The notes under the pieces: generated by a model
Told to the model about the DNA's origin: nothing
What the model saw: only the letters and a program-made list of their open reading frames with translations
Databases searched by the model: none
Part shown: positions 8,621-10,939 of the stretch, in pieces
Numbering within the stretch: the first letter of the stretch is position 1
Layout: every line of letters starts with the position of its first letter
Made by a program: the position numbers and the translations under genes
NCBI GenBank assembly: GCA_001823165.1
Contig: MHTT01000015.1
Coordinates: forward strand, 1-39,254
Direction: 5' to 3'
Length of the DNA stretch: 39,254 nucleotides
DNA from: Candidatus Wildermuthbacteria bacterium RIFCSPHIGHO2_01_FULL_49_22b
GTDB taxonomy: Bacteria; Patescibacteriota; Minisyncoccia; Minisyncoccales; UBA10102

Positions 8621-8649
8621 TCTTATATTTCTTCTCCCCATGAATATGC

Positions 8650-8672
8650 CTAGTAGGGTCTGACCCTACTAG
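8650..8672. repeat. REP-type palindrome, copy 1 (3' side of the RAYT gene)
   Basis: A perfect palindrome with arm TAGTAGGGTC and its complement around one central base, extended by one more pair. It lies 5 bases after the stop of the tyrosine transposase gene. Confidence 0.85.
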
Positions 8673-8676
8673 AAGC

Positions 8677-9384
8677 TTACTCAAACATCTTTGCATCAAA
8701 GTTTGCTTGACCTCCTTTCAAGCGAATCCAATCTTCTACTGCCTGGCGGCACTTCTGCTCGTCACCAAAAAATTTAAGAAAGAAATCTTTGGTGGTGACA
8801 AAAGGAAAATTTTCTTTGCCTATATAATCGCTGTAGCTCGAAGCCCAGTACTGCTCTAATTTCTGAATTGCGTTATCTGTATTGCACACAGAAAATTTTT
8901 TCCACCCCGACTCCCAAAGTTCTACTGGATTTGTATGTACATATACAAATACATTATGGAGTTGAATATCATCATGGATACGCACATCTTTAAAGTGGGA
9001 TTGGAATAGTGTTCCTACGCGCTTGTATTGTTTATTAAAATAGGTTGAATATCCACCGAGTTTTTGCATAAATTTAGAAATACCTCCTTGCAGAGTCTCT
9101 TGCAGAATCAAATGAATATGGTTGGGCATAAGTGTAAAGGCCAGCAACTCAACCAGAGGTGTTCGTTTCTTTGCCCGCTCCTCCGCTAATCTTCCTCCTA
9201 GCTGAGTAGGGTCAGACCCTACTAACGGCCAGAGGTTTGTGGCGGTATGGGTATTACAGAATTCCAGACCTAAAATAAAGCGGTGATAATCCTGAGGCTT
9301 AAGAAAGATATTGCGTTGCTCTACTCCTCTTTTTATGACGTGATAGATACCGTCAATCTCAAATTGTCGTGGTTGCCTTGGCAT
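8677..9384 (-). CDS. REP-associated tyrosine transposase (RAYT, Y1/IS200-like)
   Basis: A 235-residue HUH transposase. The N-terminus PRQFEIDGIYHVIKRG is typical of the RAYT family. LMPNHIHLIL carries the metal-binding His-x-His (89 and 91), and the helix YSTYFNKQYKRVGTLFQSHFK holds the candidate nucleophilic tyrosine. NPVELWESGW and the SSYSDYIG segment follow the family pattern. RAYTs nick single-stranded palindromic repeats. Here identical palindromes flank the gene on both sides, and a third copy lies inside it, encoding LVGSDPT at residues 54-60. A TGC-TATAAT stands 6 bases before the ATG with no Shine-Dalgarno, so the mRNA is probably leaderless. The frame is intact, so it may be functional. 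Confidence 0.9.
   Translation of the reverse strand: MPRQPRQFEIDGIYHVIKRGVEQRNIFLKPQDYHRFILGLEFCNTHTATNLWPLVGSDPTQLGGRLAEERAKKRTPLVELLAFTLMPNHIHLILQETLQGGISKFMQKLGGYSTYFNKQYKRVGTLFQSHFKDVRIHDDIQLHNVFVYVHTNPVELWESGWKKFSVCNTDNAIQKLEQYWASSYSDYIGKENFPFVTTKDFFLKFFGDEQKCRQAVEDWIRLKGGQANFDAKMFE
9205..9223. repeat. REP-type palindrome, copy 2 (inside the RAYT coding sequence)
   Basis: The 9-base arm AGTAGGGTC and its complement surround a single central base. It is in frame in the transposase gene, within a variable stretch between the first strand and the HxH motif. Confidence 0.85.
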
Positions 9385-9390
9385 GAACAG

Positions 9391-9396
9391 ATTATA
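9391..9396 (-). promoter_or_regulatory. extended -10 of the RAYT gene
   Basis: TGC-TATAAT on the minus strand, 6 bases before the ATG. It directly abuts palindrome copy 3, which occupies the -35 position. Confidence 0.55.
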
Positions 9397-9423
9397 GCAT
9401 AGTAGGGTCTGACCCTACTATGC
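9397..9423. repeat. REP-type palindrome, copy 3 (5' side of the RAYT gene)
   Basis: A perfect 27-base palindrome. The inner arm TAGTAGGGTC is the same as in copy 1, with extra GCA/TGC pairs. It lies between the RAYT promoter and the terminator of the RT transcript. Confidence 0.85.
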
Positions 9424-9429
9424 AGCTAG

Positions 9430-9469
9430 AAAAAAATAAGGCGCCAGAGCTCAAAAGAGACGGCGCCTT
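9430..9469 (-). terminator. intrinsic terminator of the RT / structured-RNA transcript
   Basis: On the minus strand AAGGCGCC (9469-9462) pairs with GGCGCCTT (9445-9438) across a 16-base loop, followed by A and seven T (9436-9430 region). Confidence 0.8.
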
Positions 9470-9800
9470 GTGATTTTCCCCGTTGGGGCCAGAGTTCCAG
9501 ACAAGACCTCCCCTATTCTCTGTCCTGCCTTCCGGGCAGGAAGCGGGCCACTGAGGACGCTCCGGGCGAGCTGGCGGCCACACACCAGGCCAGGAGGAAG
9601 AAGAGAATCCTTCTTCAGGGGACATGCAATCCGCTTTGAGCGGAGCATCCCTATCTCCCGTCACATGAGTGGCGAGAGGACTCAGCGGTTGAGAACAGGA
9701 AAACCCAGTCAAAAGAACTCTGGCCCGTATGCTCTCCAGATGCCTTTAAGGGGCGCTAAAGAGCACGAGGCCCGCTACTTTTACTATACCAAAGAAAAAG
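9430..9800 (-). ncRNA. candidate structured non-coding RNA downstream of the reverse transcriptase
   Basis: The roughly 350 bases between the RT stop (9820) and the terminator contain no credible gene. Read on the minus strand, GGGCCAGAGTTC (9726-9715) is perfectly complementary to GAACTCTGGCCC (9497-9486), making a 12-bp stem that closes a domain of about 217 bases. Inside lie several local hairpins: CTCTCG/CGGGAG with inner CAC/GTG; GGGATGC-TCCGCT/AGCGGA-GCAT-CCC; GAAGAAG/CTTCTTC; CTGG-GGCC/GGCC-CCAG; and TCCTGCC/GGCAGGA. A further hairpin GCTCT/AGAGC precedes the closing stem. No RNase P, tmRNA, 6S or SRP core motif, and no group II intron domain V, was recognised. The position next to a retron-like RT and the inverted-repeat closure suggest an RNA template or msr-msd-like partner (inference); classical retrons place it upstream instead. 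Confidence 0.6.
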
Positions 9801-9819
9801 AAAGACACCAAGCTCTGTT

Positions 9820-10770
9820 TTACACAGGTGCTGGCGCCTTGCGCTGTTCGCGCTTCGTTTGCCCAATCAATCGACGGAACCGCTTGCATTGTCGCAAAAC
9901 CCTTTGCTCGCTTGCAGTGGGCTTACGCTGATTCACGATGCCCAGGACCACCGACATTGCTCCTTGAATCTTGGGCGCAAGAGAAAGGTCTCCTTTCAAG
10001 CCCTCGTGGAGCAATCCTCGCACATGCCGCAGATAGAAGGGTGGGACAAAGACCCTGCCACCCAGTTCCAACCCAATGCCGTTAATAACAAGCGTGCTTT
10101 TTTGCAGGTCATGCGTCTGAGACTTGAGGTGGTTAACCTTAAAACCAGCGCTGGCAATGATGGCTCTCACCTGCGCGCGTACCCTTCTACTCACCGTAAT
10201 GTTTCCAGAAATGGTGAGGTCATCCACATAGCGCGTGTAGATTAAGCCGTGCTGGCGACACAGATTCCCAATCTTTTCATCAAGAAGCACTGCGCAGTAG
10301 AGATTAAAGAGATCGGGAGAGGCGGGGGCTCCTGCGGGCACTCCTCCTGTTTGGGACATGCAGTAGCGCTGAAGGAAAGCCCTGACTTCCCAGAACTGTC
10401 CTTTGAGCCGAGGGTCTGCCTGATGGAGCACGCTCGCTAACTTCCCAACCTGCACACTCTGGTATGCGCGGCGGAGATCCAGCAGGCAAAAGAACCTGCT
10501 TTGCCGATGCCGTTCCACGTTCTTCAAGGGAGAATCTCCGGGCCGGCATGCCGTTGCATAAGGCATCTCAACCTTAAGCGAGCGCAGGTATTTAATGAGC
10601 CGTCCATGGATGATGCGCATTGCATTGTTCGGCGCTTCCAGGGGGCGGCGCCCCTTTTCTCTCTTACTCAAAGGGTTTTTGTCCCTGATGGCAAAGATGC
10701 GAAACGCTGGAGTCCCTCCGAGGAGGGCAGGGTTTAGCTCAAATCCGAGAACCAAGTTTTCAAAGGACAT
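9820..10770 (-). CDS. retron-like reverse transcriptase
   Basis: A 316-residue RVT_1 protein. The catalytic aspartates are D98 in CLLDLRRAYQSV and D183/D184 in YTRYVDDLTISGN. GVPAGAPASPDLFNLYC (143-159) is the motif 4 form G-x-P-x-G-x-P-x-S-P of retron and group II RTs, not the SQ form of diversity-generating retroelements. KNVERH (83-88) sits where retrons have NAxxH, and LVINGIGLELGGRVFVPPFYLRHVRGLL corresponds to the retron VTGLxVN region and thumb. The box is YVDD rather than the usual YADD. There is no maturase or endonuclease domain. The start at 10770 has a strong GGAGGAG Shine-Dalgarno. It lies downstream of the permease and a 33-residue peptide and upstream of a structured RNA. A defence role is plausible but unproven. 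Confidence 0.82.
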   Translation of the reverse strand: MSFENLVLGFELNPALLGGTPAFRIFAIRDKNPLSKREKGRRPLEAPNNAMRIIHGRLIKYLRSLKVEMPYATACRPGDSPLKNVERHRQSRFFCLLDLRRAYQSVQVGKLASVLHQADPRLKGQFWEVRAFLQRYCMSQTGGVPAGAPASPDLFNLYCAVLLDEKIGNLCRQHGLIYTRYVDDLTISGNITVSRRVRAQVRAIIASAGFKVNHLKSQTHDLQKSTLVINGIGLELGGRVFVPPFYLRHVRGLLHEGLKGDLSLAPKIQGAMSVVLGIVNQRKPTASEQRVLRQCKRFRRLIGQTKREQRKAPAPV

Positions 10771-10837: not shown

Positions 10838-10939
10838 TTATCCTCCCAATAAGGACGCGAGCTGTTCTGAAAGAATCAAAAAAATGGCCGCCAACGGGAT
10901 TATGATAAGGAGAACAATGGTTAAAATCTTATCCAACAT
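10838..10939 (-). CDS. 33-residue single-span hydrophobic peptide
   Basis: A short frame running from an ATG at 10939 (MLDKILTIVLL) to TAA at 10840-10838. Residues 5-23 form one hydrophobic helix (Ile/Leu/Val/Ala/Phe with one Pro) after a short charged N-terminus, followed by SEQLASLLGG. The ATG overlaps the last codons of the permease gene in another frame, so translation could be coupled. Size and pattern recall type I toxin peptides and small membrane effectors, but this is only resemblance. The next gene, 67 bases on, is the RT. It could also be a chance frame; a third-position base bias cannot be judged at this length. Confidence 0.4.
   Translation of the reverse strand: MLDKILTIVLLIIIPLAAIFLILSEQLASLLGG

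Follow-up and report, generated by a model that had tools for sequence, protein, structure and literature searches.

A retron-type reverse transcriptase and an adjoining conserved structured RNA in Candidatus Wildermuthbacteria and related Patescibacteria

Does a long inverted repeat that encloses a group of hairpins mark a functional RNA, and might such an RNA serve as the template of a reverse transcriptase (RT), as in retrons? Retrons defend against phages and also supply the single-stranded DNA that is made inside cells for genome editing; those known are mostly msr-msd-RT operons that include an effector. Their reverse transcription is primed at a conserved guanosine next to the first closing arm (a1), via its 2'-OH. 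The question is raised by a stretch of 39,254 nucleotides (the window), a contig of the 584-kb draft genome of Candidatus Wildermuthbacteria bacterium RIFCSPHIGHO2_01_FULL_49_22b. An earlier note, made from the letters of the window, had pointed to a 12-bp inverted repeat closing a multi-hairpin domain and had considered a template function of the msr-msd type conceivable.

Absent from that note is a gene for an RT, which lies only 93 bp from the element on the same (minus) strand (Table 1). The protein carries the active-site motif YVDD, with NVERH in region X and INGIGLE in region Y. It matches Pfam RVT_1 (2e-17), PADLOC RT_II-A (4e-33, the top of the PADLOC retron models) and NCBIfam retron_St85_RT (1e-30; 106.7 bits, under the cut-off of 235), and its best match in the PDB is the RT of retron Ec86 (2e-17). 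Its match to the Drt2 model NF041746 (8e-9) reaches 35.2 bits against a cut-off of 390, so that it does not qualify as a DRT2-type RT, and the match to the group II maturase model is weak (1e-7). The same pattern of strong retron-family matches and weak Drt2 and group II matches is seen in all 15 RTs scanned from the clade described below. These data show that the protein is a retron-type RT with intact catalytic and retron motifs. The genome also encodes a second retron-type RT of 434 aa (L034, G000:C6, 7255-8559), with the motif YTRYADD and about 128 residues before the RT domain; beside this gene, no long-range inverted repeat of at least 10 bp was found.

Table 1. The RT gene and the parts of the adjoining RNA element, in window coordinates.
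Feature	Position	Strand	Basis or remark
Retron-type RT gene, 316 aa, ATG start, no extra domain	9820..10770	-	profile matches
Candidate RNA promoter, TTGGTG - 17 nt - TATAGT	9783..9811	-	sequence reading; right after the RT stop codon
Structured RNA, ~340 nt	about 9776 to 9430	-	directly 3' of the RT gene
5' hairpin P0, ahead of arm a1	9729..9766	-	fold
Closing arm a1, GGGCCAGAGTTCT	9714..9726	-	repeat search, fold
Closed multi-hairpin core	9486..9726	-	z -6.5, covariation
Closing arm a2, GGAACTCTGGCCC	9486..9498	-	repeat search, fold
Terminator-like hairpin, AAGGCGCC..GGCGCCTT, then T-rich tail	9430..9469	-	sequence reading

The two arms of the repeat, GGGCCAGAGTTC (9486-9497) and GAACTCTGGCCC (9715-9726), are indeed exact complements with 217 bases between them. 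By itself, a 12-bp repeat is only mildly unusual, as exact inverted repeats of at least 12 bp at similar spacing occur in 5 of 173 600-nt control windows (~3%) from the same and related contigs. Folding of 9486-9726 yields -126.7 kcal/mol on the minus strand (z -6.5 against dinucleotide shuffles) and -112.2 kcal/mol on the plus strand (z -4.8), and on neither strand is the energy matched by any of 200 shuffles; the comparison with shuffled sequence that the earlier note had suggested thus comes out in its favour. The RNA strand is likely the minus strand. In the minus-strand fold, the arms are extended by two interrupted helices, which lead to a multi-branched core of five or six hairpins. Most of the local hairpins listed earlier are present in the minimum-free-energy fold, but the list had mixed the two strands.

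The element is apparently a separate RNA gene of ~340 nt with its own transcription unit. We read the promoter and the terminator from the sequence, and their recurrence in homologues backs these assignments: two related loci, L046 and L047, have a terminator-like hairpin at the equivalent place. A stable hairpin ahead of the first arm is likewise present in most other loci. A generic promoter and terminator scan of the window reported neither candidate, the terminator because its loop is 16 nt long and the scan allows 8 nt, and the promoter because only three of the six positions of its poor -35 hexamer match the consensus. Searches with Rfam covariance models gave no match at the gathering threshold, nor any meaningful one when the limit was relaxed to E 10. 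A coding role for the RNA was rejected, as stop codons are as numerous as in shuffles.

Is the structure maintained by selection? Among the 25 genomes of the window's family, the RT is found in two others, G015 (59%) and G006 (53%). In both, a structured region lies directly 3' of the RT gene and is followed by a terminator-like hairpin, and the closing stems, GGGCTCCCTACCC/GGGTAGGGAGTCC and GGGTCCCAGAGTTTC/GAAACTCTGGGACCC, respectively, are unlike that of the window in sequence. In a MAFFT alignment of these three close homologues, made by sequence, 26 of 62 consensus pairs are changed on both sides; shuffles give 9.9 (s.d. 2.4), a count of 26 is attained by none of 500 shuffles, and with the partners slid the count stays at 11 or below, a control that favours the structure inasmuch as the structure was derived from the alignment. 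Despite this bias, the difference is so large that the compensatory signal is hardly in doubt. Of the 18 pairs in the closing helix, 10 have changed on both sides, and the covariation check proposed in the earlier note therefore shows substitutions in the closing stem to be compensated. The covariation analysis covers these three homologues only, other loci being counted just for the presence of a closing stem, since the RNAs of the clade as a whole have diverged too far to align into a dependable consensus. We conclude that this RNA structure is genuine and is maintained by selection.

The pairing of RT and RNA extends well beyond this family. In a profile search of a public genome set, 14 loci are clearly nearest to the window RT (E <=4e-43; next, 4e-32), and all belong to Patescibacteria where the lineage is recorded (Wildermuth-, Parcu-, Berkel-, Harrison-, Sacchari-, Kerfeld-, Campbell-, Zambryski- and Yanofskybacteria); viral and phage collections yielded distant retron RTs only. 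In an IQ-TREE phylogeny with 54 retron-type RTs and without a non-retron outgroup, 19 RTs form one clade (support 100/99), set off by a long branch. Within it, the window groups with L046 and L047 (100/99), and L050, from Berkelbacteria, falls elsewhere. A closing stem lies beside the RT gene in the window (13 bp) and in 18 other loci (9-17 bp), with ~160-350 nt between the arms; the assignment is less sure for L052 and L054, in which the arms enclose longer segments. At least one flank holds an exact 12-bp repeat in 7 of 15 loci, versus the 5 of 173 control windows. Sense-strand folds of 17 RNA cores have z-scores of -3.3 to -8.8, somewhat inflated because the cores were picked by their stems. 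The stem lies just 5' of the RT gene in most loci, where it has 10-17 bp, and 3' of it in the window, L046, L047 and, separately, L050, which means that the position of the RNA relative to the RT has changed at least once in the clade, and probably twice. Terminator-like hairpins between RNA and RT in L048, L049, L056, L061 and L062 are consistent with an autonomous RNA gene. Across the clade RNAs, the motif search found no motif shared by all beyond chance. CCTCAG and CATGTG, suggestive by eye as clade-wide motifs, were rejected, being no commoner than the best k-mer in shuffles; CCTCAG lies at 70-88% of RNA length in all seven RNAs that have it.

Several members of the clade show further features. 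The RTs of L061 (4917-6164) and L062 (992-2212) are extended at the C terminus by a DnaG-type CHC2 zinc ribbon (Pfam 2e-24 and 2e-27, respectively), and in both loci a closing-stem RNA lies 5' of the RT-CHC2 gene. In a Saccharibacteria RT (L175 2090-4138, the same as L064), the fusion partner is a YaaA peroxide-stress domain (Pfam 5e-63). These fusion proteins are early-branching members of the clade, and their CHC2 and YaaA domains would be compatible with the handling of a DNA product. One Saccharibacteria genome (G958) holds two divergent, paralogous RT and RNA cassettes with closing stems 5' of the RT (L171 and L172), one of them flanked by ribosomal protein genes, a placement suggestive of acquisition or mobility. 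In L048, L051, L053 and L055 the cassette is near tRNA genes, a possible insertion preference.

No neighbouring gene is common to the 15 loci. By ORF reading, the cassettes sit among unrelated housekeeping genes, for example tgt-uvrB, infB-rbfA, parB-miaA and rplKA-rplJ. A related permease gene without an RT is found in 22 of the 25 genomes of the window's family, and in most such genomes examined an acylphosphatase gene follows it directly. In the window, G015 and G006, RT and RNA sit between permease and acylphosphatase, with a RAYT gene in addition in the window only. By this comparison with empty sites, the cassette consists of RT and RNA without an effector. A short ORF downstream of the permease and 5' of the RT (10838-10936, minus strand), encoding a single membrane helix (MLDKILTIVLL...), was rejected as an effector, as similar ORFs follow the permease in relatives that lack the RT; L142 and L143 are examples of relatives with such an ORF, and it is probably an unannotated small host protein. 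Across the clade, RNA and RT go together, with no conserved effector gene beside them.

How far does this element resemble a retron? Retron RTs have NAxxH in region X and VTG in region Y, I/L variants of VTG and single losses of NAXXH being frequent (PMC4244168). Retron ncRNAs are enclosed by complementary a1/a2 arms (PMC8989520) and form a single msr-msd-RT transcript with the RNA 5' of the RT, and some retrons are without a clear effector (PMC8867640). The window RT belongs to this lineage in that retron RTs account for all its best matches, to profiles as well as in the PDB, and its clade joins retron-type RTs, in a tree without a non-retron outgroup. Regions X and Y are present in variant form, within the ranges that PMC4244168 gives for such enzymes, as NVERH and ING (A to V and T to N); among 15 clade members the H of region X is invariant and the N nearly so, L051, L053 and L058 have NAxxH, and L055, L057, L058 and L059 have [IV]TG. 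The 13-bp compensatory closing stem beside the RT corresponds to a1/a2, and, as in retrons, long terminal complementary arms with about 160-350 nt between them bound a structured RNA next to the RT.

There are also clear differences. In the window lineage, the RNA follows the RT gene and is apparently transcribed as a unit of its own, and elsewhere, where it is 5', it often has its own terminator, so the single-transcript arrangement of retrons is not seen. Most studied retrons have an effector gene, whereas here neither a shared neighbour nor the empty sites reveal one. Instead of a plain msr with one long msd hairpin, the core has multiple branches. The RTs form a separate Patescibacteria-wide clade scoring far below the NCBIfam cut-offs, the nearest retron RT models being PADLOC RT_II-A, NCBIfam retron_St85 and, in the PDB, retron Ec86. 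Finally, the conserved priming G that the earlier note had proposed to look for after the first arm was not found: within the first 10 nt after a1, G occupies any one position in nine of the 19 loci at most, the stem ends being aligned with some uncertainty. In the window, L046 and L047, a UUGA stands shortly after a1. The idea of an msr-msd-like template accordingly gains from the adjoining retron-type RT and from like closing stems beside related RTs, but lacks the conserved priming G. Because priming G and effector were both looked for and not found, we file the element as a retron-like variant and not as a proven retron; that the clade is absent from the retron literature is not established.

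That a conserved structured RNA works together with the RT seems to us very likely. The RNA is likely to be the template of the RT. We lean, with less confidence, towards an element that works in the manner of a retron, and the best overall description would, on balance, be a divergent element of the retron type that lacks an effector and has its template RNA transcribed as an autonomous unit.

Other readings must be weighed against this one. A tentative one, which we consider possible but rather doubtful, is that these loci constitute a Patescibacteria-specific RT-RNA class apart from described retrons and DRTs, in which an autonomous template RNA, on either side of the RT, would act in trans without an effector, and cDNA or an RT-RNA-DNA complex would be the active agent in very small genomes.

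Less probable is a system like DRT2 or DRT9, UG-group defence RTs with a structured RNA, in which activity resides in the cDNA itself, as a concatemer, repetitive gene or homopolymer, and no effector is needed. The two-gene architecture without a separate effector gene is shared, the DRT2 and DRT9 RNAs are also rich in stem-loops and adjoin the RT, and pyrimidine-rich tracts occur in the 3' half of several clade RNAs, such as CTTCTTTTTCTTC in L046. By profile, though, the window RT is not of the UG kind, as it matches retron models (1e-30) far better than Drt2 models (8e-9), and all 15 members scanned are alike in this. Neither do the RNAs show an open-frame signal. Stop counts over the RNA are as in shuffles, though the endless ORF that a DRT2 template yields on repetition would depend on the unit repeated. 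DRT2 and DRT9 RNAs are, moreover, described as lying 5' of the RT (PMC12483538), whereas that of the window lies 3'.

Diversity-generating retroelements (DGRs), known from candidate phyla, and group II introns likewise combine an RT with an associated RNA. They differ from the present element, which matches the group II maturase model weakly (1e-7), has no Rfam match, and has an RT that branches next to retron-type RTs.

It is more improbable still that the RNA is not a template and binds the RT or its mRNA for regulation, as an attenuator, autoregulatory element or stability element. The place 3' of the RT and the terminator at the end would suit a 3' UTR element in the window, but most clade members have the RNA upstream of the RT gene, and frequently a terminator belonging to the RNA separates the two (L048, L049, L056, L061). 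It is therefore not a 3' UTR, and need not be co-read with the RT.

The ends of a mobile element, either the adjoining RAYT/REP unit or the remains of a transposon, could in principle also be rich in palindromes. Next to the element, a RAYT (Y1_Tnp) gene (8677-9384, minus strand) has near-identical palindromes TAGTAGGGTCTGACCCTACTA on both sides (about 8650-8672 and 9399-9424), and another copy lies within its ORF near 9203-9226; from its sequence, 8645-9425 is a REP/RAYT unit inserted between the RNA and the acylphosphatase gene. The RAYT gene was rejected as a part of the system, as L046 and L047 carry the RNA without it, followed by the acylphosphatase gene. These homologous loci, the RNA-like covariation, and REP-like palindromes that differ in sequence and fall outside the element largely refute the mobile-element explanation, which we regard as very improbable. 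Least probable of all, a chance inverted repeat in GC-rich intergenic DNA would accord with the ~3% of control windows that hold a 12-bp repeat at such spacing but is refuted by the fold z-scores, the compensatory changes that conserve the closing stem, the conservation across Patescibacteria and the constant association with an RT gene.

Returning to the retron-like reading, the element would be a retron-type system reduced to two parts, an RT gene and a dedicated template RNA. The RNA may be made from its own promoter and end at its own terminator, and its predicted fold is a core of several hairpins that the a1/a2 stem closes. The RT, whose gene lies immediately upstream, would bind this RNA and, with priming as in retrons, may copy part of it, probably the hairpins of the 3' half before a2, into single-stranded DNA. 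A role in defence or another stress response is plausible, with any effector absent or encoded elsewhere.

If this proposal is correct, ultrasmall and mostly uncultured bacteria would harbour a deep clade whose RNA is encoded in trans and which does without an effector, an illustration of how few parts suffice for a retron. The clade offers compact RT-RNA pairs for testing. With the RNA ahead of the RT in some loci and behind it in others, the need for co-transcription of RNA and RT in retrons becomes directly testable.
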